From IMG/VR virus record IMGVR_UViG_3300011118_000008, positions 1 through 51,801 of that record: DNA of 51,801 bases; one strand, written 5' to 3'. Below the pieces are notes generated by a model. It did not search any database and was not told the origin of the DNA. It saw only the letters and a program-made list of their open reading frames with translations. The translations under genes were made by a program, and so were the position numbers. Positions 8,715-48,721 of this stretch are shown here, in pieces. Each line of letters opens with the position of its first letter. Positions within the stretch are counted from its first letter, which is position 1. The DNA is from a virus.

Positions 8715-9005
8715 ATGAAACTTCATCCATTAGTAGATAAAGTAGTTGTTAAACGTTTTGAAGCTGAGACTAAAACACCGGGTGGAATAGTTTTACCAGG
8801 TAGAGTTAAAGAGAAATCGCAGAGAGGCAAAATTGTAAGCACAGGTAATGGTAAAGTGCTTGATAATGGAGTAGTGAAAAAGATGCAGGTCAAAAAAGGA
8901 GATGTTATACTTTTTGTAAGTCACGCCGGAACAGAAGTAAAGATAGATGGTAAAGAATATTTGATTATGAGTGAAAGAGATATTATTGCGGTAATTGAAG
9001 AATGA
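8715..9005 (+). CDS. groES: GroES co-chaperonin
   Basis: 96 residues, the normal GroES length. LHPLVDKVVVKRFEAETKTPGG begins the domain; the mobile loop KTPGGIVLP is intact, followed by KSQRGKIVSTGNGKVLDNG, VKKGDVILFVSHAGTEVKIDG and the final YLIMSERDIIAVIEE. It forms the heptameric lid of GroEL; a phage copy can retune the host chaperonin for capsid folding. A perfect AAAGGAG site precedes the ATG. This is the second Cpn10-type gene in the window and much the closer to bacterial GroES. Confidence 0.95.
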   Translation: MKLHPLVDKVVVKRFEAETKTPGGIVLPGRVKEKSQRGKIVSTGNGKVLDNGVVKKMQVKKGDVILFVSHAGTEVKIDGKEYLIMSERDIIAVIEE

Positions 9006-13485: not shown

Positions 13486-14118
13486 ATGAAGCGGAAGAAA
13501 TTAGTAGTTTGGTCAGGAGGTATGGATTCTACTCTTTTATTGACTGACATAGCTAATGAGTTCTCGACAAAGGAAGACCCTATTATCGCTTATTCTTTTA
13601 TTACTGATTTTCTTGATGGTAACAAAAGAGTTATGGAAAGAAGAGCAAGAAACAGATTCCTTAAATGGGCAAATAAAAAAGGTTATAATATAGAGCATAA
13701 AGAAGTAAGTGTTTCTTGTGGAGACAATGTTTCGCCTAATGGTTGGGCACAGGGATTGTTTTGGTTTTCTTTTATTGTTCCTTTTATTCCAGATAATTGT
13801 GATGTTTATTTTGGATACGTTCAGGGAGATGGTATTTGGTTAGCTGTAAATGAATTTTATAAGGCTTATGGTAATTTAAGTTATATTGGCAAGAAGAAGA
13901 ATTCTGAATTACATTATCCTTTTGCATATAAAGATAAGTGGGAGGTTATACAGGGCATTCAGAATTACAGAATCCCGAGTAAGTGTTTTTGGACATGTGA
14001 AACTCCAATTAAGAAAAATAATAAAATAAGAGCGTGTGGAAAATGTGAACCATGTATAACTCTTCAAGTTGCTAAGTACGATTTTCGCGTAAGAAGAAAA
14101 TTAAAAAATAAGATATAA
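13486..14118 (+). CDS. queC: QueC-like 7-cyano-7-deazaguanine synthase
   Basis: 210 residues, normal for QueC. The PP-loop ATP pyrophosphatase motif VVWSGGMDSTLLL is at about 7-19; the zinc site near the C-terminus is CFWTCETP...CGKCEPC, matching the four-cysteine pattern of QueC. GYVQGDGIWLAVNEFYKAYG is the family's central loop region. QueC converts 7-carboxy-7-deazaguanine to preQ0. Some phages use such enzymes to make 7-deazaguanines for insertion into their own DNA. It is bracketed by repeats of the methyltransferase 3' end, and a broken relative lies at 32.5 kb. Confidence 0.85.
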   Translation: MKRKKLVVWSGGMDSTLLLTDIANEFSTKEDPIIAYSFITDFLDGNKRVMERRARNRFLKWANKKGYNIEHKEVSVSCGDNVSPNGWAQGLFWFSFIVPFIPDNCDVYFGYVQGDGIWLAVNEFYKAYGNLSYIGKKKNSELHYPFAYKDKWEVIQGIQNYRIPSKCFWTCETPIKKNNKIRACGKCEPCITLQVAKYDFRVRRKLKNKI

Positions 14119-20627: not shown

Positions 20628-23621
20628 GTGCAAACTAATATCATGCCGGGTAATCCATTTCAACAATTAAATAATTTATATACTAAAGTGGAAATGCTTC
20701 CTGGAGAGTTATCCCAGTTAAAGCATTTAACCCCAGAAGATAAAAAGCTACTTCAAAGGATTGGGCTTACTACTACTCAGGTTAAGAGAGACCTTTTAGA
20801 AGATGTGCAAATACAATATGATCGGATGAGTTTGTATCATCAAGTAGAACGAGCTCTTGAACATCCTCTCGTAGGATCAGCAGCTGAATTGTATGGAAAT
20901 GCAACATCAGTATTTAGTCCACTTCACAATGCTACTGTTTGGATCACATCTGAAAGTCCTACTTATCAAAGAGAACTTACGAAGTTATTGGATAGGATTG
21001 GGATAGAAGAAAAGATATTTGATTGGGCTTATACAACTGGCACCTATGGAGATATGTTTGTTAAAATTAATGGGATCCCGGGTAAGGGTATATTGTCTAT
21101 AAAGGATGATGAACATCCTTTGAACATAAGTAGAGTAGATCATGAAGGAATTTTAGTAGGTTTCTACAAAACACCTTTGGGTCAAGTTAGTGAGCAGCAG
21201 AAGCTACAGGCTCCATGGGAATATGTACATTTTAGATTGCTGGGAGGCAAGAAGAAAAGACCAAGGTTTGGAGATCCAAAGTATTCCGAGTTTAGGTCAA
21301 TGCATTTATTAACTGGGATGGATGTAAAGCAAGTTACTACAAAATATGGGACATCTTTACTACTTAATGCTCTTCCTTCTTATAGAAGATTACGTTTAGC
21401 AGAAGATAGTTTGTTGTTAGCCAGATTGAGTAGAGGATTGATTCGATATATTTGGAAGTTGAAGGTCAGCGGGTGTTTTCGAGGAAATACTCAAATTTCT
21501 TTAATGGATGGAACTAATCCTACAATTAAAGAAATGGCAGATGATCCAGAGACGTTTATAGGAAAATCTGTTCTTACAGTTAATGAGAAAACAAAACATT
21601 TGGAACCTAAGAAGATTAAGAATGCAAAGAAGACACATAAGAATGTTGAATTAGTTAGAGTACATCTTGATAATGGTAAGTATATAGATTGTACGAGCAA
21701 CCATCGATTTATGTTGCGTGATGGAAGTTATAGAGAAGTACAGGATTTGAAACCTAATGATTCTTTGATGCCTTATTATTGGTATATATCTGAGAAGGAA
21801 CGGGATGTAATTGAAGGTTATAGATTAGTATACGATCCAGGTGATGATAGATATCATCGTGAGCATAGAATTGCTGTAGGGAAGTTGGAAAAAGGCCAAA
21901 TTCCTCATCATGTAGATTTTAACAAATTAAATAATGATCCTTCTAATTTTAGAATTTCTTCTTCACAAAGTGAACATATCAAATTTCATCATGAGCATAG
22001 TAAGAAATATGGTTGGGCTATTACTGGGTCAAAACCTAAAACTAAAGAACATAGTAGAAAAGTGGTAGAATCAAGGCGAGCTAATGGTGGCCCGTGGCAC
22101 AGTAAAGAAACTAGAGCTAAAATTAGTAAAGCACATCAAATTGAAAAAGAAGTAAGAATTTGTGCTTATGATAAGTGTGATAATACTTTTGAAGTAATTC
22201 CTAGTAGTAATCAAAGATATTGCAGCATTTCTTGTAACAATAAATCGCGGATGTCTCCAAGGGAAACAAGGGTATGTGCTTGTGGTAAGTGTGGTGAAAC
22301 TTTCGAGTGTGCAGTAACTAGCAAGCAAAGATATATTTATGGTCATCATATGTATGGAAAGACAGCTTGGAATATAGATTTAACAAAAGAAACGGATGAA
22401 AGAGTAGCTAAACAAGCATGTAAGGGTGAGAAAAATGGAATGCATATAAGAGTAGAGAGAGAGATAGCTCAACCAGTAGAAAGTCTTATTAATCATAAAG
22501 TTGTTCAAGTAGAATGGTTAAATGTAAAAGAAGATGTATATGATCTTGAAATAGAAGATACTCCTAATTTTCCGCTAACTGCTGGAGTATTTGTTCATAA
22601 TAGTAATATGGAAGCTGTTGGGGAACTGGTAGATCAGTATTCTAGAGTGCTTAGAGAGGCAAGGGCTCTTAATACAAGAGATACAGAAGCAAATTTTGAG
22701 AGTAAGGAAAATCCAATGTCTTGTATAGAAGATATTTTCTTACCTGTTTGGGGTGACACAGGAGACCTTACTTTTGATAAGATAGGAGGCGAAGCAGATA
22801 TTAGATGGATACGAGATATTGAAGACCTTAGACAACAGCTGGCTGCTGCACTGAGAGTACCTTTACAATTGCTTGGAGCGTATCTTAAAGAAGCTACAGG
22901 ACCACTTGGTAATTCAGCAATGGAAAAGCTGGATATAAATTTTGCCAGGATTGCTCGTAAACTACAAAGAACTGTTCGAACAGGAATTAAGCGTATCTGT
23001 CAGATACATTTAGCATATATGAATATGGATCCGGATCCAAGTCTTTTTGATGTACAGATGGCAGAGATGAGTACAGCAGAAGAAGAATCCTTAAAAGATT
23101 CACTTTCAACAGGGATGGATATTGTATCTTCAATGATGGATACAGTAGATAAAGCTATTGAAGGAGGCGATAGACAAGTAGATAAAATTGAGATTTTCAA
23201 TTACTTAAATGAAAAAATTCTAAAACTCGAAGACTTTGATCTTAAAGAATTCATAATATCAAAGGAAGCACTTCCTGAATGTAAACGAAGAAGAGCACGG
23301 ATGGACCAAGAACAGAAAATTAAAGCACTTCTTGAGAAGGCTATAACCAAAGCTGATGGGAATCGTACATATCGAAAACCTCCTTTGTTTAGCATGGATT
23401 TATTGTCTTATGTTCCAACTACTATTTATAAAGAAGATGGTGCAGTAGATGAAAAGATAATGAAAAAGGTAAGTGAAAGAGGTGGATGGCTTGGTGTTGA
23501 ACGTAGTAGTGAAGTATGGGAATCCAAATTTGGTAATAGTATAGTGATAGAAGACGAGTTTTTTGATGAGGATATAGTAACTGGTAAGCAGTTAGCATTG
23601 CCATTTAAGAAGGATAAGTAA
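20628..23621 (+). CDS. Portal protein precursor containing an intein
   Basis: 997 residues. N-extein 1-282, intein 283-658, C-extein 659-997, giving a mature portal of 621 residues. Portal features of the T4 gp20 group: SAAELYGNAT, an ARLSRGLIRYIWKL stretch just before the insertion, and after it SNMEAVGELVDQYSRVLREA, CIEDIFLPVWG and DIEDLRQQLAAALRVPLQLLG. The portal forms the dodecameric ring through which DNA is packaged and to which the tail binds. The GTG at 20628 follows AAGAAG; an in-frame ATG at 20643 is an alternative. 68 bases of the N-extein recur downstream at 23695. Confidence 0.9.
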   Translation: MQTNIMPGNPFQQLNNLYTKVEMLPGELSQLKHLTPEDKKLLQRIGLTTTQVKRDLLEDVQIQYDRMSLYHQVERALEHPLVGSAAELYGNATSVFSPLHNATVWITSESPTYQRELTKLLDRIGIEEKIFDWAYTTGTYGDMFVKINGIPGKGILSIKDDEHPLNISRVDHEGILVGFYKTPLGQVSEQQKLQAPWEYVHFRLLGGKKKRPRFGDPKYSEFRSMHLLTGMDVKQVTTKYGTSLLLNALPSYRRLRLAEDSLLLARLSRGLIRYIWKLKVSGCFRGNTQISLMDGTNPTIKEMADDPETFIGKSVLTVNEKTKHLEPKKIKNAKKTHKNVELVRVHLDNGKYIDCTSNHRFMLRDGSYREVQDLKPNDSLMPYYWYISEKERDVIEGYRLVYDPGDDRYHREHRIAVGKLEKGQIPHHVDFNKLNNDPSNFRISSSQSEHIKFHHEHSKKYGWAITGSKPKTKEHSRKVVESRRANGGPWHSKETRAKISKAHQIEKEVRICAYDKCDNTFEVIPSSNQRYCSISCNNKSRMSPRETRVCACGKCGETFECAVTSKQRYIYGHHMYGKTAWNIDLTKETDERVAKQACKGEKNGMHIRVEREIAQPVESLINHKVVQVEWLNVKEDVYDLEIEDTPNFPLTAGVFVHNSNMEAVGELVDQYSRVLREARALNTRDTEANFESKENPMSCIEDIFLPVWGDTGDLTFDKIGGEADIRWIRDIEDLRQQLAAALRVPLQLLGAYLKEATGPLGNSAMEKLDINFARIARKLQRTVRTGIKRICQIHLAYMNMDPDPSLFDVQMAEMSTAEEESLKDSLSTGMDIVSSMMDTVDKAIEGGDRQVDKIEIFNYLNEKILKLEDFDLKEFIISKEALPECKRRRARMDQEQKIKALLEKAITKADGNRTYRKPPLFSMDLLSYVPTTIYKEDGAVDEKIMKKVSERGGWLGVERSSEVWESKFGNSIVIEDEFFDEDIVTGKQLALPFKKDK
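21340..21407 (+). repeat. 68-bp direct repeat, copy 1 (inside portal gene)
   Basis: Encodes KYGTSLLLNALPSYRRLRL and three more residues in the portal N-extein, 66 bases upstream of the intein. An exact copy by eye lies at 23695-23762, read in the same frame by a small ORF downstream of the portal gene. Confidence 0.9.
21474..22601 (+). mobile_element. Intein with HNH homing endonuclease in the portal gene
   Basis: 376-residue intein. Splicing blocks: A at the start (Cys1 in CFRGNTQISL), B with IDCTSNHRFMLRDG (TxxH-type), F VYDLEIEDTPNFPL and G AGVFVHN followed by Ser as +1 residue. Between B and F lies an HNH endonuclease core: HREHRIAVGKLEKGQIPHHV, DFNKLNNDPSNFRISS, HIKFHHE. Two zinc-finger-like cysteine sets (CAYDKCDNTF..YCSISC and CACGKCGETF) follow and probably bind DNA. 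All key splicing residues are present (Cys1, His in block B, final His-Asn, Ser+1), so splicing should work. Confidence 0.93.
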
Positions 23622-34324: not shown

Positions 34325-35422
34325 ATGTATACAAGTAACGATCCTATGTTTGAAGATAGTATGAAAGATTTTGAAGCAATAGAGAATGATAAGAATAAGA
34401 ATGTAGATGAGCAGGAAGAAGTGGAAGAGGATAAGATAGATGAAAAAGAGTGGATATGGACTAAACGGAAACTTCAAAATGCAATAAATGATATTAAAAT
34501 TAGATTGCAACGTATAGATCCTGCTTCCTTTAAGAGTAAAGAATCATATAATGATACAAAGTCATCTTGGGAAGCTCAAATAGAAGAATATGAAGCTGCT
34601 ATGGAGAGTCCTGAAACTATAGAGCAATTCAATCAAAAGGAAAAAGAAAAGAGGTATGCGGAAGTACGAAAGATGGCTACAGAAGAATCCAAATCCAATG
34701 AGCAGGAAGAGGTGAAGGAGCAGAAGGAAATTCCTGTTGGATTTGATATCAATGGAGTTGAGATAAAAAAAGGTGATGAAGTTTCTACTTCTGATGCTCA
34801 TCCTATTCAGGGTACAGTTAGTACTGTTTGGGATAATGGCTGTGTTGATATTGAATATACTAGTGGTCCTGGAGGCCCTCTTGCTGATACTTTTGATATT
34901 AAAGGTCATGGAGTTCAGAAACTGGATGTTGAAGAGAAAACTAATGAGCAGGAAGAGGAGAAAATACCTCCTGGAGCAGTTTCTAGAGCACGTGGAGCAG
35001 AGGTTGTAACTGCAGGTGAAATAGAACGTTATAGAGAAAGAGCTGAAAACTCGATGGGAACTCCTTCTGAATTATTAATTCAAAGAAGTCAGCTGTTGAA
35101 AAAACCATTAACCAAAGATCAGCGTGAGTTGGTAACTGGGGGAGATAAATATTTGAAGGAATGGATTGGTGATTTATCCGTACGAAGCGGGAGAGATAGC
35201 CCTTATGAAACTATGTGGATTATTTCAGGTCTTCCTGATGATATTTTGAAGATGTGTGAGGAAGCTAGTATAGAAATGGGAAAAGGAGAGGGGATTCCTT
35301 CACATGAATTTGAGGATATGCTTTCTTCACTTCAAGAATTATATGATCTTTCTGAGGATGTTCTTGATTCTTCTGTTGAGCTTTCTGGTGAAAATGATGT
35401 TGCTTTTGATATAGGTTATTAA
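34325..35422 (+). CDS. Acidic modular protein with EQEE linkers and SH3-like domain
   Basis: 365 residues, very acidic. Modules: N-terminal region, linker NVDEQEEVEED (about 26), a helical stretch to about 115, linker ESKSNEQEEVKEQKE (about 121), an SH3/KOW-like domain (GVEIKKGDEVSTSDAHPIQG, about 140-200), linker KTNEQEEEK (about 207), and a helical C-terminal domain (SELLIQRSQLLKKPLTKDQR, IISGLPDDILKMCEEAS). The linkers match those of the large proteins at 40134 and 43681 at protein and DNA level, so this is probably a head-assembly protein of the same system. AAGGGA start. Confidence 0.7.
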   Translation: MYTSNDPMFEDSMKDFEAIENDKNKNVDEQEEVEEDKIDEKEWIWTKRKLQNAINDIKIRLQRIDPASFKSKESYNDTKSSWEAQIEEYEAAMESPETIEQFNQKEKEKRYAEVRKMATEESKSNEQEEVKEQKEIPVGFDINGVEIKKGDEVSTSDAHPIQGTVSTVWDNGCVDIEYTSGPGGPLADTFDIKGHGVQKLDVEEKTNEQEEEKIPPGAVSRARGAEVVTAGEIERYRERAENSMGTPSELLIQRSQLLKKPLTKDQRELVTGGDKYLKEWIGDLSVRSGRDSPYETMWIISGLPDDILKMCEEASIEMGKGEGIPSHEFEDMLSSLQELYDLSEDVLDSSVELSGENDVAFDIGY

Positions 35423-40133: not shown

Positions 40134-43100
40134 ATGGATAAAAGAAATTATTTTGATTTGTTAAAATCATCTGATGGGGCTAATAAGGATAATCAGGAAA
40201 CTGATTTTAGCAACTTGATAGATGAATGTAGAGAGTCTGCTAAGAAAGAGATAGATGAAGGTATAGATTATGGAGATTACTCTGCAGTGGATGAGCAAGG
40301 GGAAGAAAAATTAACAGCCAGTTTGGTGATGGATATCGCCGGAAGCCTATCTGGCGAGCAAGGAGAGAAAGTCAGAATATCTGCCATTACTCGAGAGGTG
40401 CAAAGAAGTACAGGTGTTGATTCTGAGAAGGTAAGTAAATTTGTTCGAAAGATTTTAGCAAGACAAGGTTGGGATGTTTCTCCAATGGAGTCTAAAGTAG
40501 ATGAAGATGTCAAATCTGATTTAATAGATATTGGTAAATCAAAGCTTGGATGGGCTGTTGCTGAGCAGTTGAAAGATATTCTTGATGATCCTACAGTAGA
40601 TGGTATTGAGAGTGCGGAATTAAATTCTAATGCTGTTAGGATGATTTACCAATTCTTAAAACCTAGGCCAGAAGAAGAAGCTAAAGAAGCTACCGAGGCT
40701 ATTGAGGAATGGGTTGAAGAAGGATATGGAGATCCTGATGTTCTTGAATCCAAAGTAGATGAACAGGAATTTCCTGAAGAAGAATTAGAGAGGCCGGAGA
40801 AGCCTCGTAGAGCAGAACCTAAGGAAGAACCTGATCCAGATGCTCCTCCTGCTCCTCCTGAAGAAGTAAAAGAAGAACCTCGACCTATGGAGATGAGAAA
40901 AGAGTATCTTGGTAAGACAGATGATACCCATTTTTACTTTCTTACTGTTGAAGGAGATACAGGTGAAGTAGATGATTTTGTGATTACAGATCAGGAAGGT
41001 GTGAAGAAGTACTCTGCTAAGGAACAGAATATTGAGGTTACTGGAGAAAGTACAGCAGAGTTTCTTATTAATGCTATTCGAGATATAGATATTATGCAGA
41101 TAGAGCGTAGTATTTTCATGAAATATATTTATCCTGAACTTATCAAAGAAGGACCTGAAGAGGAGATTATAGAGGAACCAGAAGAGGAATCAGAAGAAGA
41201 ACTTGAGAAGAAACCATTGGGTCCTGAGGAGGAAGAGGAGGAACTAACAAAAGAATCTAAAGTAGAGGAAAAGAAGCCCATTCCTACATGTCCTAAGTGT
41301 GGCAAGAAGCATTGGCCATTTCAAAAGTGTAAGGATGTTAAGGAAGTAGATGAGCAGGAAGAGGCAGAACCAAGATATCCAGGGGATGTTTGGAAATTAG
41401 AAACTGCAGAAGAAGATTCAGCTATAACTTCATTAGGATTTATTTGTGAAGAAGCACTTGAAGGAGATGTTGAACAGCAGAAATTATTAGAGGAGATTTT
41501 TGAAGAGAAGTGGGAATATATTAAATCTAAATTAGAAACAGAAGGTAGTGCTCATTATGTTTGGTGGATGGATGGAGTGCACAAGTTTGTGAAAATGCAT
41601 GAAGGTGAATTTAATGAGATGAAGGAAAATGCTGCTAACTGGCGGGAGGTAGTAGACAAAGCTAAACTATATAAGATGAAAGTGGAGGATGAAGAAAGTT
41701 CTGGATCCAAGAAAGAAGTGGAAGAGAACTATCTTATTGAAATGAAAGTAACAGATGATGGAGGAAATGCATTTGATGTTTATCTTATTGATGATGGAAC
41801 ATTAGACACTGTTATAACTATTAGTGGAAAAGAGTTTAGATTTAGTCCCGAGTTTGCTTCTATGTGGAGGAGTGAAGAAGGGGATTTGTCTGAAGAAGGT
41901 TTAAGAGAACTTGCGCTTGATGCTCTTTCTAATCTTGAACAGGAAGAATATGATGAGCTAATTGGTATGGCAGCAGCAGAGAAGATAGAAAAGGAAAATG
42001 CTGCTGAAAAGGAATCTACCGGGGATGAAAGTCCTGAATCTTATATTGAGGGAAAGGATCAACTTGGTGTAAGAGATGGATCAGGACCTCCTGGTGGAGG
42101 TATTGGAAGGAGAAAACAAGCTGATGAGGAATGCCCTTATGAGAGTGAGGAGACTAATGAAGTAGAAAGTTCTGTTAAAGATATTGAAGCAGAACTTGAT
42201 ATACTCGATCAGATGAGTGTGAAAGAACTTATGGATGAGGTTGGAGAAGGAAGTAAGACAATGCCTGAAAAAGATGATCTTATTGATGCTGTGATGTATC
42301 GTAAGTTTGGTGATGAATATAAAAGTTATGTCAAGCGGCAGGTTGGATTAGAAAAGAAAACTAATAAAGATAAAGTAGAAGAACAGCATCTTGATGTATC
42401 AAGAGTTGAAGATGATGAACTTGTTGCTAAATATAAGGAGTATCAAGAAGTAATAAATTCAGGCCGTTCTGATGCTTGGCTTGAAACAGCAGTGGCTGAT
42501 ATGGCTGAAGAGATTAAGAAAAGAGGATTAGATATAGAAGAATTAAAGAATGAAAACAAAGATAAAGGGGATAGTAATATGAATGAAAAGAAAAGTCCTG
42601 AAAGTTTAGTTAAGGATGCTGAGAAGTATGAGGCAGCAGCTAAGAAAGCTCGTAAAGATGCTGCAGACTTAGTAAAGGATGAAAAGGCAAGAGCAAAGGA
42701 TGCGAAGAAAGTTGAGGATGAAAAGGCAAAGAAGAAAGCTAAAACTGATGAAGGTAAAAATCCAAAAGCAACTGATAGTCCAGAGAAGAAGATTAGGAAG
42801 TTGGCAGAAGATGAGGTTAAGGGAAGCACATTAGCTGATTTACAACAGCAATTGAATAAGGAGGATGGAACAAAAAAAGTTTATGTTTTTGATTTTGATT
42901 CTAGTAATTACTATTATGTTGATAGTGTAACTGATGAGGAAGGAGTTGTTTTAATCTATGTCGAACTAACAGATAGACCAGAAGAACTTGAGGAAAAAAA
43001 GCTGGTAGAAGGTGAAGATAAAGTTAATGAAACAGATGTTGCCAAGGGAGTGAAAGCATTAATCAAGTTAACAAAGGAAGCTCTTGCTGCTGGTGAGTAT

Positions 43101-43460
43101 AATAAAGCAGCTGAATGGTGCCAGAAGTTAGCTGAGGTAGAGAATGTAGTTCCTTCGGAAGCTGAAAGAGAAGCTGATAAAGTAGAATTTGATAAGGATG
43201 AAAAACCAGAGGATAAGGAAGCAGAAGTACCTACTGAGGGTAAGGATCAACCTGGTGTGAGAGATGGGACAGGCCCAGCTGAGGGTTCTTTCCAAAGGAA
43301 AACAAAAGGTGATTTAGGTAAAAGAAAAGAAGCTGGTGAAGAGTGCCCGAATGAAAATAAGGATAAGAAAAGCAAGATCCAGGTAGAAAATTCTATGGAT
43401 ATTACTGAAAGGAAGAGTATGGAAAGATTACATGGTTTATCCGATCATCTAATATCATAA
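40134..43460 (+). CDS. Giant acidic modular head protein with SKVDE linkers
   Basis: 1108 residues, strongly acidic. Modules are separated by linkers: ESKVDED (119), ESKVDEQEFPEEE (205), ESKVEEKK (374), EVDEQEE (404). Recognisable pieces: two small helical domains in the first 200 residues; an alpha/beta unit (TDDTHFYFLTVEGDTGEVDD); a zinc knuckle CPKCGKKHWPFQKC (near 384); two glycine-rich units EGKDQLGVRDGSGP and EGKDQPGVRDGTGP, each followed by an EECP stretch; and long alanine/lysine helices. No enzyme motif is seen. Position just before the protease-scaffold gene and the shared linkers suggest a capsid or internal-head protein processed or assembled with it. AGGTGG start. Confidence 0.7.
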   Translation: MDKRNYFDLLKSSDGANKDNQETDFSNLIDECRESAKKEIDEGIDYGDYSAVDEQGEEKLTASLVMDIAGSLSGEQGEKVRISAITREVQRSTGVDSEKVSKFVRKILARQGWDVSPMESKVDEDVKSDLIDIGKSKLGWAVAEQLKDILDDPTVDGIESAELNSNAVRMIYQFLKPRPEEEAKEATEAIEEWVEEGYGDPDVLESKVDEQEFPEEELERPEKPRRAEPKEEPDPDAPPAPPEEVKEEPRPMEMRKEYLGKTDDTHFYFLTVEGDTGEVDDFVITDQEGVKKYSAKEQNIEVTGESTAEFLINAIRDIDIMQIERSIFMKYIYPELIKEGPEEEIIEEPEEESEEELEKKPLGPEEEEEELTKESKVEEKKPIPTCPKCGKKHWPFQKCKDVKEVDEQEEAEPRYPGDVWKLETAEEDSAITSLGFICEEALEGDVEQQKLLEEIFEEKWEYIKSKLETEGSAHYVWWMDGVHKFVKMHEGEFNEMKENAANWREVVDKAKLYKMKVEDEESSGSKKEVEENYLIEMKVTDDGGNAFDVYLIDDGTLDTVITISGKEFRFSPEFASMWRSEEGDLSEEGLRELALDALSNLEQEEYDELIGMAAAEKIEKENAAEKESTGDESPESYIEGKDQLGVRDGSGPPGGGIGRRKQADEECPYESEETNEVESSVKDIEAELDILDQMSVKELMDEVGEGSKTMPEKDDLIDAVMYRKFGDEYKSYVKRQVGLEKKTNKDKVEEQHLDVSRVEDDELVAKYKEYQEVINSGRSDAWLETAVADMAEEIKKRGLDIEELKNENKDKGDSNMNEKKSPESLVKDAEKYEAAAKKARKDAADLVKDEKARAKDAKKVEDEKAKKKAKTDEGKNPKATDSPEKKIRKLAEDEVKGSTLADLQQQLNKEDGTKKVYVFDFDSSNYYYVDSVTDEEGVVLIYVELTDRPEELEEKKLVEGEDKVNETDVAKGVKALIKLTKEALAAGEYNKAAEWCQKLAEVENVVPSEAEREADKVEFDKDEKPEDKEAEVPTEGKDQPGVRDGTGPAEGSFQRKTKGDLGKRKEAGEECPNENKDKKSKIQVENSMDITERKSMERLHGLSDHLIS
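42048..42144 (+). repeat. Coding repeat GKDQ-GVRDG-GP, copy 1
   Basis: Encodes EGKDQLGVRDGSGPPGGG and a following ADEECPYE. A diverged second copy lies at 43236-43354 near the end of the same gene. Confidence 0.75.
43236..43354 (+). repeat. Coding repeat GKDQ-GVRDG-GP, copy 2
   Basis: Encodes EGKDQPGVRDGTGPAEG and, after an insertion, AGEECPNE. Matches copy 1 at 42048 in layout and in most codons of the core. Confidence 0.75.
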
Positions 43461-43680: not shown

Positions 43681-46600
43681 ATGATACTTAATGAACGAAT
43701 TTTATCAAAACCAATTATCGAGGAAGTATCAACTGAGGAATTACCTGAAGGTGTACTTAGTCGAGTGTCCTATCTCATCTGCAACATAGGCAAAAGGAAT
43801 GCTAATAACAGAGTTTATGAAAGAGCTGTTTGGGATAAAGTATTTGGAAAGGATTTACAAGAGCAGATGATAAGGAGGGCACTTTTTGGTCATGCTGAAC
43901 ATCCTGATCAGACTCAATCTAATCTTGAAAAAACTAGTCATGTTATTTTCGAGATGAAGATAGATGATAAAGAGGTTTGGCAGAGAATGGATATTCTTGA
44001 TACTCCCGGTGGACGTATTGTGGATACTCTTATTAGAGCTGGATGTCAGGTTGGTGTAAGTACCCGAGCAGAAGGAGATCTAGAAGAAGCAGAGGATGAT
44101 ACTGGTTCTTATCAGCGAGTTATTCCTGAAAGTTATAACTATGTGACTACAGATTTTACAGCTGATCCGAGTACTTTTGGAACTGTCCCTGTTGATGTGA
44201 AGAGGAATATTGTATCTGAAGTTAGTAAAGAGTTGCAGGATAAAAAGTTAAATGGATCTGAAAGACAGTTTGCTCAACTTATTCTTGAGTCTATGAATTG
44301 TCAAGGTAGTGAATGTGTGGTAGAAGGAGCAAAAAAGATAGCTAAGAGGATGAAGGAAATAAAAGAGGGTGTTTGGGCTTTGCCAAATACTGTTGCTAAA
44401 GCAAAGAAACTTGCTGAGTTAATGAAGGAACCTTTGAGTAGTGAAGTAGCAGTAGAAAATTTATATGATGTACTTGGTGATGATGAACTTTGGGATGACT
44501 TTAAGTATAAAGGAGGTACTCCAAGAATTGATGATGATGTAAGGCCTTTGGTTAAAAAGAGAGTTAGGCAATATCTGAAAGATTATAAAGAAGATCCAAA
44601 AGGTTTCAAACAGAAACTTGATCCTGAAGCAGAAAAAATATTGAAAGGCTTGGTTGTGGAGCAGAAGACTATAGAAAGTTTGGTTAGGGATAAGTTGATT
44701 AAAATTGGTACTGAACTTAAGTATGGTAATAAGGATGCTAAGGTAGAGAAGATAGAAGAAGGTAAAGTATCTATTTCAATGCCTGGAGCAGATTCAAGTG
44801 GAGGTAAAATAATAGATATTGATGGTGCAGCATATGTTACAATACAACCTGATAATTCTATAATTATACAACCTGACCGAGAACCTCCTTTACCTACACC
44901 TGCTCCAGATGAAATACCAGAAGAACCTCCAAGAGTTGTTCCTGATTCAGCTGATGCTATTGTAGTTAGTGATGATGAAATTCCTGAAGGGAAGAAACAA
45001 TTTGGTAAAGAGAGCATTGTAGTAGGGGATATTGTTAAGATAGAAGAAGGAGAATATAAAGGAAGAGAAGGTAAAGTAACTAAAGTTGATGAAGGATCGA
45101 TAGGAATAATTCTTGATACTGGAGTAGCAGTTCAGATTGAAGATTCTACGTCAATTAGTATTACTATAGCTCCACCGCCTGTAGAAGTTCCAGAGGAAGA
45201 AATAGAAGCTATGGAAGCTGCTGGTCCTCTGCCTATTGAGAAAGATATTCCTGAAAGAAAGGTTGTTATGGGAACTGAAGAAGAGAAGTTTGATGATGAA
45301 TCAGAAAGTGGTTGGTCTACTCTAAAGGATATTTCTGGATTATCTAATGATGATCTTATGAATTATATTGATTATTGGGAAAAAGCTGTAATGTCAGGAG
45401 ATTCTCTAAATGTTGATCAGGCAAAGGCAAATCAAACTCGAGCTCGTAAAGAGTTGAGGGTTAGAGGAATTACACAAGCTACTGAGTCAAAAGTAGATGA
45501 AGCTAAAGTAGTTCAAAAGGATGATGGATGGTATGTTGTATCTCCTGCTGGTAAAGATCTTGGTGGGCCTTATCCATCAGAAGGAGCAGCTAATTTAAGA
45601 AAGAAGGATGTTGAGTTTTATGCAGCTAGTAGAGAATCTAAATTAACTGAAACAGAAGATATCAAAGCGATGTATAAAGCTGCCAAACTTCCTACTCCTG
45701 ATGGTAAAGGAATTCATACGGAAGCTTTTCATGAGCTTGCTATTAAAATAGCTAAAGGATATGTTGAGAGTGGGGATAGCCCAGAAGAAGCTCTTGATAA
45801 AGCATATCCTACTGCAATGAAGCAACTTGGAAAAGAAAAGGCAGTGAAGAAAGCTCATCAAAGCAGTGAAGCTAAAGTAGAGGAAGCAGTTAGGGTTGGG
45901 GATAAGATTAAGTTTAGTAAATTTTCTTATCCAAATACTGCTGGAGGAACTGGAAGTGGTGATACTCATCCAATTTCTGATTTAGATACTTATTTTGATG
46001 GAGTAGCAACTGGTGTTGTTGTAAAGGAGTGGGATGATTATGAGATTGGTCAAGTTATCCATGTTGAGCTTGATGATAAAACTTGGGATCTTATTAAGGA
46101 TAAGGCTAAAAAGAACATTGCTTATATAAGTGAGTTTGATCTTGTTGAGTTCAAAGTAGATGAAGTAGATAAAGAATTCAATCTTGGAGATAAGTTTGAA
46201 TACAAAGGTAAAGAGTATAAACTTGTATATCAGGATATTCAACAAAAATATGTAGATGCTCCCCCGAGTATTGTTGGGATTGATGGAGAAGATTCTGAAG
46301 GAAATGAGGTTCATATTGATTCAGATGATTTTGGTAAAGTAAGAGTAAAAGAATCAATCTCTACTACAGTTAAAGAAATCAAAGATTTACAAGTTAAAGA
46401 AGCTTCTATAAGAGCTGAAAGAGATAAGGCAATTGAACTTCTTGAGGAACTTACAAATGAGAATCAACAACTTCAGGAAAAGGCTAGAAAAGAAAAAATA
46501 CTTGAAGTTAAAATTCTTATTAATAAGATGAGTAAAGTTTTGGAAGATAAGGAGCAGGAGATAAATGCTCTTATATCTAAACTTGAAGAGAAGGTTAAAA

Positions 46601-47187
46601 TTGCTGCTGATTTAAAAGAACAACTTGAAGAGAAGGTTAAAATTGCTGCTGATTTAAAAGAACAACTTGAAGAGAAGGTTAAATTAGTTTCTAAAGTAGA
46701 TGAGCGATTAAATAGAGTAAAAACTAATTTGTCAAATAATGTTAAGAGCTTAAAGAAATCTGCTATAGTTACTAATGATAAACATGAAAAGACTTTGTTA
46801 GAAGTAAAGGAAAATCATCAGAAGAAATTAAATGAAACAGTTAAATTGTTAGAAGAAAAAATAGAAATATCTAACAAGGAGACAGAAAAGAAGGTAAAGG
46901 AAGAAGTTACTAAAGAAGTTACAAAAGAGTTTGTTAAGAGTTTTATTGAGTATAGGCTTTCTGAAACTGGTCTAAAGGTTGATGATAATTCTCGAGCACT
47001 TCTTGAGAATTGTAAGTCACTGGAAGAGGTGGATGATCTTTTGGATGAGGTGGTGGATGCCAGTAGGAGGAGTGCACTTCACTCTGAATCAATAACAGGT
47101 ATTCATGTTGCTAAGCAAGTAGTTGTTGATCCAGAAGAAGAGAAAGCTAGGCGTCAAGTAAATAATGTATTTGAAGGTATGGGATAA
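43681..47187 (+). CDS. Prohead protease-scaffold giant fusion protein
   Basis: 1168 residues. About 1-185 is a T4 gp21-like prohead serine protease: CNIGKRNANNRVYERAVWDK, catalytic His in LFGHAEHPDQT, DTPGGRIVDTLI, catalytic Ser in GVSTRAEGDL, and YVTTDFTADPS. Then come a helical domain (about 195-310), an SH3/KOW-like domain (VVGDIVKIEEGEYKGREGKV, about 446-490), further small modules with linkers ESKVDE (602), EAKVEE (730), FKVDE (824) and SKVDE (1004), and a long coiled coil (about 890-1060) like the T4 gp22 core scaffold, with a 14-residue tandem repeat. In most phages protease and scaffold are separate or nested genes. It is followed directly by the capsid protein. GGAG lies 11 bases from the ATG. 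Confidence 0.85.
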   Translation: MILNERILSKPIIEEVSTEELPEGVLSRVSYLICNIGKRNANNRVYERAVWDKVFGKDLQEQMIRRALFGHAEHPDQTQSNLEKTSHVIFEMKIDDKEVWQRMDILDTPGGRIVDTLIRAGCQVGVSTRAEGDLEEAEDDTGSYQRVIPESYNYVTTDFTADPSTFGTVPVDVKRNIVSEVSKELQDKKLNGSERQFAQLILESMNCQGSECVVEGAKKIAKRMKEIKEGVWALPNTVAKAKKLAELMKEPLSSEVAVENLYDVLGDDELWDDFKYKGGTPRIDDDVRPLVKKRVRQYLKDYKEDPKGFKQKLDPEAEKILKGLVVEQKTIESLVRDKLIKIGTELKYGNKDAKVEKIEEGKVSISMPGADSSGGKIIDIDGAAYVTIQPDNSIIIQPDREPPLPTPAPDEIPEEPPRVVPDSADAIVVSDDEIPEGKKQFGKESIVVGDIVKIEEGEYKGREGKVTKVDEGSIGIILDTGVAVQIEDSTSISITIAPPPVEVPEEEIEAMEAAGPLPIEKDIPERKVVMGTEEEKFDDESESGWSTLKDISGLSNDDLMNYIDYWEKAVMSGDSLNVDQAKANQTRARKELRVRGITQATESKVDEAKVVQKDDGWYVVSPAGKDLGGPYPSEGAANLRKKDVEFYAASRESKLTETEDIKAMYKAAKLPTPDGKGIHTEAFHELAIKIAKGYVESGDSPEEALDKAYPTAMKQLGKEKAVKKAHQSSEAKVEEAVRVGDKIKFSKFSYPNTAGGTGSGDTHPISDLDTYFDGVATGVVVKEWDDYEIGQVIHVELDDKTWDLIKDKAKKNIAYISEFDLVEFKVDEVDKEFNLGDKFEYKGKEYKLVYQDIQQKYVDAPPSIVGIDGEDSEGNEVHIDSDDFGKVRVKESISTTVKEIKDLQVKEASIRAERDKAIELLEELTNENQQLQEKARKEKILEVKILINKMSKVLEDKEQEINALISKLEEKVKIAADLKEQLEEKVKIAADLKEQLEEKVKLVSKVDERLNRVKTNLSNNVKSLKKSAIVTNDKHEKTLLEVKENHQKKLNETVKLLEEKIEISNKETEKKVKEEVTKEVTKEFVKSFIEYRLSETGLKVDDNSRALLENCKSLEEVDDLLDEVVDASRRSALHSESITGIHVAKQVVVDPEEEKARRQVNNVFEGMG
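46580..46683 (+). repeat. 42-bp tandem repeat, about 2.5 copies
   Basis: Encodes QLEEKVKIAADLKE repeated in the scaffold coiled coil; the first two units are identical apart from the first base. 42 bases equal 14 residues, two heptads, so each copy lengthens the coil without breaking its register. Confidence 0.95.
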
Positions 47188-47200
47188 AAGGGGTAAAAAA

Positions 47201-48721
47201 ATGACTGATATGGAATTAGTACAGTCTCAGTTAAAGTCCCTACAGGATCAGCAAGAAGCGCTGATGCGTATTCCTCGAATTAAAAAGTATCTGGGCGTGG
47301 TTAATGAACACGTTAAAAATAATCAGGGTCGTGATATGACGATCTATGAGAAGCGTAACGTGGCTCAGTGTCTTTACAATGCTGTTATTGATACAGGTCT
47401 GAAAGCAGGAACTCGGTTGTTTGAGACTACAACTGAGGATAATGTTGCCTTTTTAGGTATTCAGCTCCCTGTTATTGCAGCGTTGCTGCCGTCGCTAGCT
47501 CTTAATGAGATAGCGGTTGTACAGGCAATGGATCGAAGAATTGCAGCTGTGTTTTATCTTGATGTGAAGTATGGGTCAGTGAAAGGTAATGTTAATAGAG
47601 GTGAAGATGCGGATACGATGCTAGGTGCAAAGTCCGGTCATAATGTTGGTAAAAGTGGCCGAAGATTTGCAATGGCTCGTGTTGTTCATGAACCTATTGA
47701 TGCTGGTGATGGTTTTTGTAGTGGTACTGTTGAGTATGCTCCCGGGCTGATCAATCTTGAAAATGTTAAGGTTGAGACGGTTGCAGATATTGGTACTATT
47801 GATGAGGCTGCAACTTTACTGGGTTCTAGTAATGCTAGTGGAGCAATTACTGGTACTGGTATTACTGGTACTGGTTCAATTGATGCTGCTGGTGCTTATA
47901 GCATGACTATTACAGGTACTACTAGTGCTGATGTTATCTACATCACTTATGATTATCAGTATGACCTTCCTGTAGATTCTTCAGGTAATAAAGATGGCGT
48001 TCCTGAAGTTGATGTGTCTGTAACTCAGTCTACAGTGGAAGCAATTGATTTTCCGTTGAGGGCAAAGTACAGTATTGGTGCCCAGATTGATATGATGAAA
48101 GCTCACGGGATTGATCTTGAGTCGGAGCTCGTCAAATACCTCGGGGGAGAAGTCAAATTTACTATCGACCAGGTAGGTTTGGACATGATTGATGATGCAG
48201 CAGCAAGTGATGATGCTGCACATGGAATTGATGATTGGGATGCTCGCCCAGGTTTGGGTGAACCGTGGCTGTGGAAGAAAGTTGAAATCAAAGACCGTTT
48301 CGAGCAAGGCTCGAACTACATCATTGAGAAAACAAAACGTGGTATTGGTAACTTTATTCATTGCGGTAATGATGTTGCTCGTGTGATTCGACAACTTGAT
48401 TCATTTAAACCGCGTAGTGCTGCTGGCAATATTCCAACAGGTCCAATGGTTATTGGTGATCTTGATGGCCGGGTTGTTATACAGAATCCATTCAAGGCAA
48501 GGGCTGCTTATACAATGGGATTTAGAGGTTCTTCATATCTCTATGCGGGCTTTATCTACGCTCCATATATTCCATTGTTCACCACGCCGACTCTGATTAC
48601 TTCTGACTTGATTGCTCAGAAGGGTTTTCTTTCGAGTGCAGGTTTTAAGGTGACCAATGCAGGTATGTTCACCGAGGGTGCAATCACAAGTCTTGGTACT
48701 GGTTATGTCAATCCAGCATAG
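47201..48721 (+). CDS. Major capsid protein, T4 gp23-like
   Basis: 506 residues from the ATG at 47201 behind AAAGGGG (the open frame extends 12 codons upstream). FLGIQLPVIAALLPSLALNE, VVQAMDRRIAAVFYLDVKYG, FPLRAKYSIGAQIDMMKAHG then IDLESELVKYLGGEVKFTID are the HK97-fold landmarks of the T4 group. An insertion at about 210-255 (AITGTGITGTGSIDAAGAYS) replaces the usual loop and could be a surface domain. The N-terminal 60 residues may be removed by the prohead protease. Codon choice here is more GC-rich than in the neighbours, as expected for a highly expressed gene. A strong terminator follows. Confidence 0.93.
   Translation: MTDMELVQSQLKSLQDQQEALMRIPRIKKYLGVVNEHVKNNQGRDMTIYEKRNVAQCLYNAVIDTGLKAGTRLFETTTEDNVAFLGIQLPVIAALLPSLALNEIAVVQAMDRRIAAVFYLDVKYGSVKGNVNRGEDADTMLGAKSGHNVGKSGRRFAMARVVHEPIDAGDGFCSGTVEYAPGLINLENVKVETVADIGTIDEAATLLGSSNASGAITGTGITGTGSIDAAGAYSMTITGTTSADVIYITYDYQYDLPVDSSGNKDGVPEVDVSVTQSTVEAIDFPLRAKYSIGAQIDMMKAHGIDLESELVKYLGGEVKFTIDQVGLDMIDDAAASDDAAHGIDDWDARPGLGEPWLWKKVEIKDRFEQGSNYIIEKTKRGIGNFIHCGNDVARVIRQLDSFKPRSAAGNIPTGPMVIGDLDGRVVIQNPFKARAAYTMGFRGSSYLYAGFIYAPYIPLFTTPTLITSDLIAQKGFLSSAGFKVTNAGMFTEGAITSLGTGYVNPA

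Follow-up and report, generated by a model that had tools for sequence, protein, structure and literature searches.

A gp21-type protease and a coiled-coil scaffold joined in one module-bearing head polyprotein of T4-like phages

The 51,801-nucleotide stretch of viral DNA analysed here (positions 1 to 51,801 of IMG/VR record IMGVR_UViG_3300011118_000008, hereafter the window) carries an uninterrupted open reading frame (ORF) of 1168 residues (43681..47187, from ATG 43681 to stop 47187; the head-gene features located below in the window lie on the + strand, like this ORF), in which a T4 gp21-type prohead protease, a series of small modules and a coiled-coil scaffold follow each other on one chain. 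This arrangement, which had been proposed on first inspection of the sequence, is borne out by the reading frame, by profile matches and by the predicted structure. The relatives considered are 24 contigs, recovered by scanning viral contigs twice and genome contigs once, and each of them has one ORF of 533-1545 aa with the protease, in the same pre-capsid position. The fusion thus occurs in 25 genomes, and intact catalytic residues, a repeated joint motif and shuffling of the modules are seen as well. Judging from sequence features, the gene product is probably a self-processing head polyprotein that is cut at its joints. More tentatively, we consider it possible that protease, scaffold and exchangeable payload are combined in a phage analogue of eukaryotic viral polyproteins, in which modules joined by a standard cutting peptide would be packaged, freed and delivered.

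The N-terminal domain (43681..44190, residues 1-170) was assigned to the S77 (T4 gp21-type) proteases by Pfam Peptidase_S77, which matches residues 39-140 (E=1.6e-10), by PHROG 207 'head maturation protease' (E=6.7e-30) and by Foldseek comparison of the predicted structure with T4 gp21 (5jbl, E=2.6e-6), the whole-chain model being only moderately confident (mean predicted local distance difference test score, pLDDT, of 58.6). These searches agree with the original prediction of a gp21-type protease with GHAEHP and GVSTR sites. Indeed, both sites are present and contain the catalytic candidates H74 (43900-43902) and S127 (44059-44061), which are unchanged across the proteases of 17 aligned relatives. 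In addition, both residues align with alanines of crystallised T4 gp21 (5jbl), which presumably represent the catalytic His and Ser of the T4 enzyme inactivated by mutation.

At the other end of the chain, a scaffold profile and the structural model delimit a coiled-coil scaffold (46354..47184, residues 892-1168), with a near-continuous helix predicted over residues 896-1132. The C-terminal coiled coil had been correctly anticipated, but its presumed span of residues 890-1060 was too short, since it extends from about residue 892 to 1168 (~280 residues). The profile matches the polyprotein of every relative save L017 (23/24). As regards known phages, the one similarity is a profile match to LIS04, and a tblastn search of 50,697 phage records with residues 885-1168 gave no match at E 0.01. 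The likeness to a T4 gp22-type scaffold therefore consists of a long coiled coil directly before a gp23-type gene and does not extend to sequence homology with known phage scaffolds. As foreseen, the gp23-type major capsid protein (47201..48721; start set by alignment; Pfam Gp23, 1.1e-31) is encoded immediately downstream, its gene beginning 13 nt past the polyprotein stop. In five relatives (L005, L011, L017, L028 and L030) inserted sequence interrupts the capsid gene, a situation also annotated in Bacillus phage SP-15 and suggestive of introns with endonucleases. No internal start that could yield free scaffold, as in lambda C/Nu3, is conserved near the scaffold start across the relatives, and in the window and several relatives there is no in-frame start near the scaffold whatsoever; a separate lambda Nu3-like scaffold product is therefore unsupported. 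Protease and scaffold would thus be made 1:1, unlike in T4, where 72-100 protease copies stand against 576 scaffold copies, and because of this ratio the finding bears on scaffold stoichiometry.

Between protease and scaffold, the small SH3-like and helical modules that had been surmised are indeed present, two SH3/KOW-like folds and one confident helical fold having been modelled. The protease is followed by a helical region (44209..44649, residues 177-323, from the model), while residues 200-330 are without match in the relatives searched. Then come an SH3-like module (44659..44868, residues 327-396), recognised from the model and from its sharing with relatives (~10 genomes, plus the upstream head protein of relative L009), and a KOW/SH3-like module (45010..45168, residues 444-496), defined by the model and Foldseek KOW matches, with a Pfam KOW score of 0.003 that is below the cut-off. 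The helical 'KGIHT' module (45652..45864, residues 658-728; 656-728 in the model) is confidently predicted, with a pLDDT of 75-93 over most of its length, and recurs in 7 genomes in differing surroundings. Several further modules were modelled at low confidence, and the middle as a whole is hypervariable between relatives.

Modules are also common to the polyprotein and the gene upstream of it, whose product (40134..43460, 1108 aa) occupies the place of T4 gp67/gp68. This upstream head protein combines a conserved core (40881..41144, residues 250-337), found in 20 genomes and modelled with a pLDDT of 77-94, with shuffled modules; outside the core it is made of variable modules of the same kind as the polyprotein middle, and its model displays confident modules with low-confidence stretches between them. 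Recurrent modules of upstream genes include a zinc-ribbon-like one and one with GVRDGTGP. A Foldseek search of the PDB with the upstream protein gave no hit below E 0.001, and tblastn of its core against the phage records gave no match. The upstream head protein of relative L007 (3735-7973) has at residues ~150-440 a cysteine-rich insert (CPHRKRGKPCGYCYVE) that is reminiscent, by eye, of a radical-SAM-type enzyme, with no match in Pfam.

The joints of both proteins repeat a short motif, E-S-K-[VILT]-[DN]-E, which occurs ~50-200 times above chance and is nearly confined to pre-capsid genes. In the polyprotein it is found, close variants included, as ESKVDE (45484..45501, residues 602-607, in the low-confidence stretch 564-656), ESKLTE (45634..45651, residues 652-657, bordering the KGIHT module) and EAKVEE (45868..45885, residues 730-735), with KVDE (46153..46164, residues 825-828) as a further candidate joint. 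The upstream protein carries ESKVDE twice (40488..40505, residues 119-124; 40746..40763, residues 205-210) and ESKVEE once (41253..41270, residues 374-379). After it had been spotted in the window, the motif was counted in the relatives in the strict form ES[KR][VILMTA][DN]E, with the expectation computed by local shuffle (lower) and by a first-order Markov model (higher). It was seen 12 times in the relatives' polyproteins (0.09 to 0.24 expected) and 12 times in their upstream proteins (0.06 to 0.21 expected), counts that are not fully independent events because the relatives are related sequences, although the copies adjoin unrelated modules and those of the window differ in their codons. 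Among 180 further ORFs from these contigs (51,604 aa), a looser form has four occurrences, all of them in other genes of the pre-capsid block, and it is absent from seven 20-kb stretches at other places on the contig of relative L045. Over all ORFs of all loci, it is confined to the two gene types, a few of their neighbours and a 699-aa protease gene of a 642-kb phage. The latter, an S77 protease gene with ESKINE in an uncultured phage (L056, 4016-6115; LR756502.1), is possibly a distant member. In the window, a 365-aa protein encoded upstream of the capsid block (34325-35422) has ESKSNE and NVDE/KIDE near its N-terminus and may be a further head substrate.

The conserved end of the motif is a hydrophobic-x-Glu tripeptide, which resembles the rule of T4 gp21. 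The T4 enzyme cuts after L/I-x-E and has LIE-9 near its own N-terminus (PMC9026906); it is also processed at its C-terminus, and its substrates comprise the scaffold, gp67, gp68, the protease itself and the internal proteins. Candidate sites of this type surround the window protease. LNE (43687..43695, residues 3-5), a putative N-terminal autocleavage site at a place like that of LIE-9, is kept as [LI]xE in 23/24, and ILE|S (44281..44289, residues 201-203), with a conserved E203, would release the protease from the rest of the chain, a site of this type lying just outside the protease domain in 22/24. In the capsid protein, the candidate maturation site LFE|T (47417..47425, capsid residues 73-75) falls at about the place where the 65-residue propeptide of T4 ends, and of 22 capsid proteins in the alignment almost every one keeps hydrophobic-x-E-[A/T] there. 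Finally, [ILV]xE precedes the KGIHT module in 7/7 genomes with unrelated upstream neighbours, although this Glu could instead be part of the module itself. Since the joint motif fits the protease rule, and since the capsid protein and the surroundings of the protease have conserved sites of this type too, self-processing is now better grounded than in the original prediction; the release of cargo, which was part of the same proposal, can only be inferred.

On these grounds, the following scheme may be drawn. The prohead core would be built by the C-terminal coiled coil together with the gp67/68-like upstream protein, so that the protease and the middle modules would be carried inside at a fixed ratio. 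Upon closure of the capsid shell, the protease would cut behind the Glu of hydrophobic-x-Glu sites, namely those on its own two sides (LNE-5, ILE-203), LFE-75 of the capsid protein, others within the scaffold and the E-S-K-[VILT]-[DN]-E joints of the polyprotein and the upstream protein. The scaffold pieces would then leave the head while the folded modules stay, and some of these may enter the host with the DNA, like T4 internal proteins. We infer that the motif is cut, that modules are retained in the head and that they act in the host. Several observations weigh against this scheme. Even a wider class of the six-residue motif is carried by only 7/23 of the relatives' polyproteins and 8/21 of their upstream proteins, and the others would therefore need other sites. 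The ends of shared modules, taken as BLAST-shared segments, are not enriched at motifs (19/37 versus 16.4 expected), and the location of 5/6 window motifs in low-confidence stretches of the model is not significant (p=0.13), low confidence marking poorly aligned modules as well as linkers. Besides, hydrophobic-x-E is short and common, with some copies located within folded regions (such as KVDE at 468, which belongs to the KOW module), and profile and structure matches gave no window module with a recognised enzymatic or anti-defence function.

The middle modules might alternatively be mere bulk, or a ruler, of the prohead core, so that scaffold, middle and upstream protein are all ground to peptides that are expelled, without any cargo. 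Such a fate would fit T4, whose core proteins gp22, gp67 and gp68 are for the most part cleaved to pieces that exit the head, and whose core is linked with head size (PMC9026906). It would also agree with the hypervariability of the middle and with the density of hydrophobic-x-E, which reaches 47.9 per 1000 aa in the middle and scaffold versus 18.7 in control proteins. However, the ESK motif is specific and not a reflection of general site density, confidently folded modules sit between the low-confidence stretches that bear it, and folds of enzymes or DNA mimics are recognisable in relatives. We therefore regard a role as bulk or ruler as rather unlikely.

More improbable still, the ESK motif could serve another purpose than cutting, either as a tether that binds the core, comparable to the capsid-targeting sequence of T4, or as a joint of homologous DNA at which modules recombine. 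Modules do move between genes and genomes, and the internal proteins of T4 are targeted by short peptides at their N-termini. But the window copies are written in different codons (GAG TCA, GAG TCT, GAA TCC) while they preserve the peptide, a sign of selection at the protein level. Moreover, the conserved end of the motif fits the protease rule, whereas a tether need not end in Glu.

Relatives provide a lead, from sequence likeness, on what the modules may do. Residues 268-364 of the L033 polyprotein form a 2H-phosphoesterase-like domain (2_5_RNA_ligase2, 3.7e-10) with two H-x-T motifs and a weak match to Acb1 (0.0055), and residues 573-669 of the L013 upstream protein form a DMP19-like domain (2.7e-10). 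DMP19 acts as a mimic of DNA, and proteins of the Acb1 type counteract the cyclic oligonucleotide-based anti-phage signalling system (CBASS). By analogy, freed modules could plausibly be delivered to the host, since IPI and other internal proteins of T4 are cut free by gp21 and injected. According to the payload proposal, modules would be plugged into the chain, packaged at a fixed ratio, released within the prohead and then delivered to the host, possibly against its defences. This suggests that T4-like phages could load many head proteins without individual targeting signals, by building them into the scaffold chain and then cutting them free. For a set of phages, the joint peptide yields a concrete list of cut sites that can be put to the test; if the proposal is true, candidate head-delivered proteins for host takeover could also be read from metagenomes.

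Other features of the window were observed beside the head genes. The portal gene (20628-23621) has an in-frame insert of ~370 residues with HNH matches, which starts with C-F-R-G-N-T and ends with H-N before S, and which is intein-like; the portal of relative L045 is without it. GroES-like and QueC-like proteins, recognised by eye at 8715-9005 and 13486-14118, hint at a bacterial host and at 7-deazaguanine chemistry. Relative L045 (contig JAHQJS010000001.1, 179 kb), with the same head genes, belongs to a metagenome-assembled genome labelled Candidatus Borrarchaeum weybense (Asgard archaea), yet the stretches inspected look phage-like by eye. It may result from misbinning or be an archaeal virus, and we therefore make no host claim.

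A sequencing or assembly error that fused two genes, as the separate genes of the T4-like phage HTVC008M might suggest, has practically no chance of being the explanation, as the same single-ORF fusion is present in 24/24 related contigs and shorter fusions exist in three isolated phages. The original prediction held that T4-like phages normally keep protease and scaffold apart. This applies to T4 and to HTVC008M (218-aa protease, separate core genes), and XacN1 has a protease of 208 aa. It does not apply to Bacillus phage SP-15 (SP15_031, 568 aa, annotated as hypothetical), Listeria phage LIS04 (LIS04_60, 559 aa) and Streptococcus phage vB_SagM-GXN1 (an unannotated 558-aa ORF), all of which have an N-terminal S77 protease with a long C-terminal extension, directly before a gp23-type gene. 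The fusion itself is therefore not new. The C-terminus of LIS04_60 matches the scaffold profile (5e-35), while SP-15 and GXN1 gave no match to it, and all three fusions are short and devoid of the long module-bearing middle of the window polyprotein. Similarly long proteins, from several hundred to 1074 aa, are known as database entries only, under the BFVD name 'Prohead core protein serine protease' (e.g. Myoviridae sp. ctA4D8, A0A8S5L6X1, 1074 aa), and their predicted structures match the window model. A literature search, with most subscription journals outside its coverage, found no description of a gp21-type protease-scaffold(-cargo) fusion, and a variable module-bearing middle whose repeated joint motif also occurs in the upstream head gene appears to be unreported.

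Among better-known systems, T4 gp21, gp22, gp67, gp68 and the internal proteins are similar in protease family, in their place before gp23 and in the set of substrates. T4 encodes protease, scaffold and core proteins in separate genes, whereas the window joins protease and scaffold in one chain, and cutting after hydrophobic-x-Glu is established for T4 gp21, whereas the matching sites here are candidates read from sequence. Polyvalent proteins also string several shuffled domains on one chain; some of these domains are enzymatic, the proteins are likely packaged in the head, and some of them have an assemblin-like peptidase thought to be active in virion assembly (Iyer et al. 2017, PMC5512222). 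This peptidase, where present, is C-terminal, in contrast to the N-terminal protease of the window, whose chain is also the scaffold; shuffled modules are found in the window as well, and enzyme-like domains in its relatives only. From general knowledge, the window chain can finally be likened to the maturational protease-scaffold precursor UL26 of herpesviruses, a self-cutting protein with an N-terminal assembly protease, a C-terminal scaffold and no cargo modules between them, since both are single chains with the protease first and the scaffold last.
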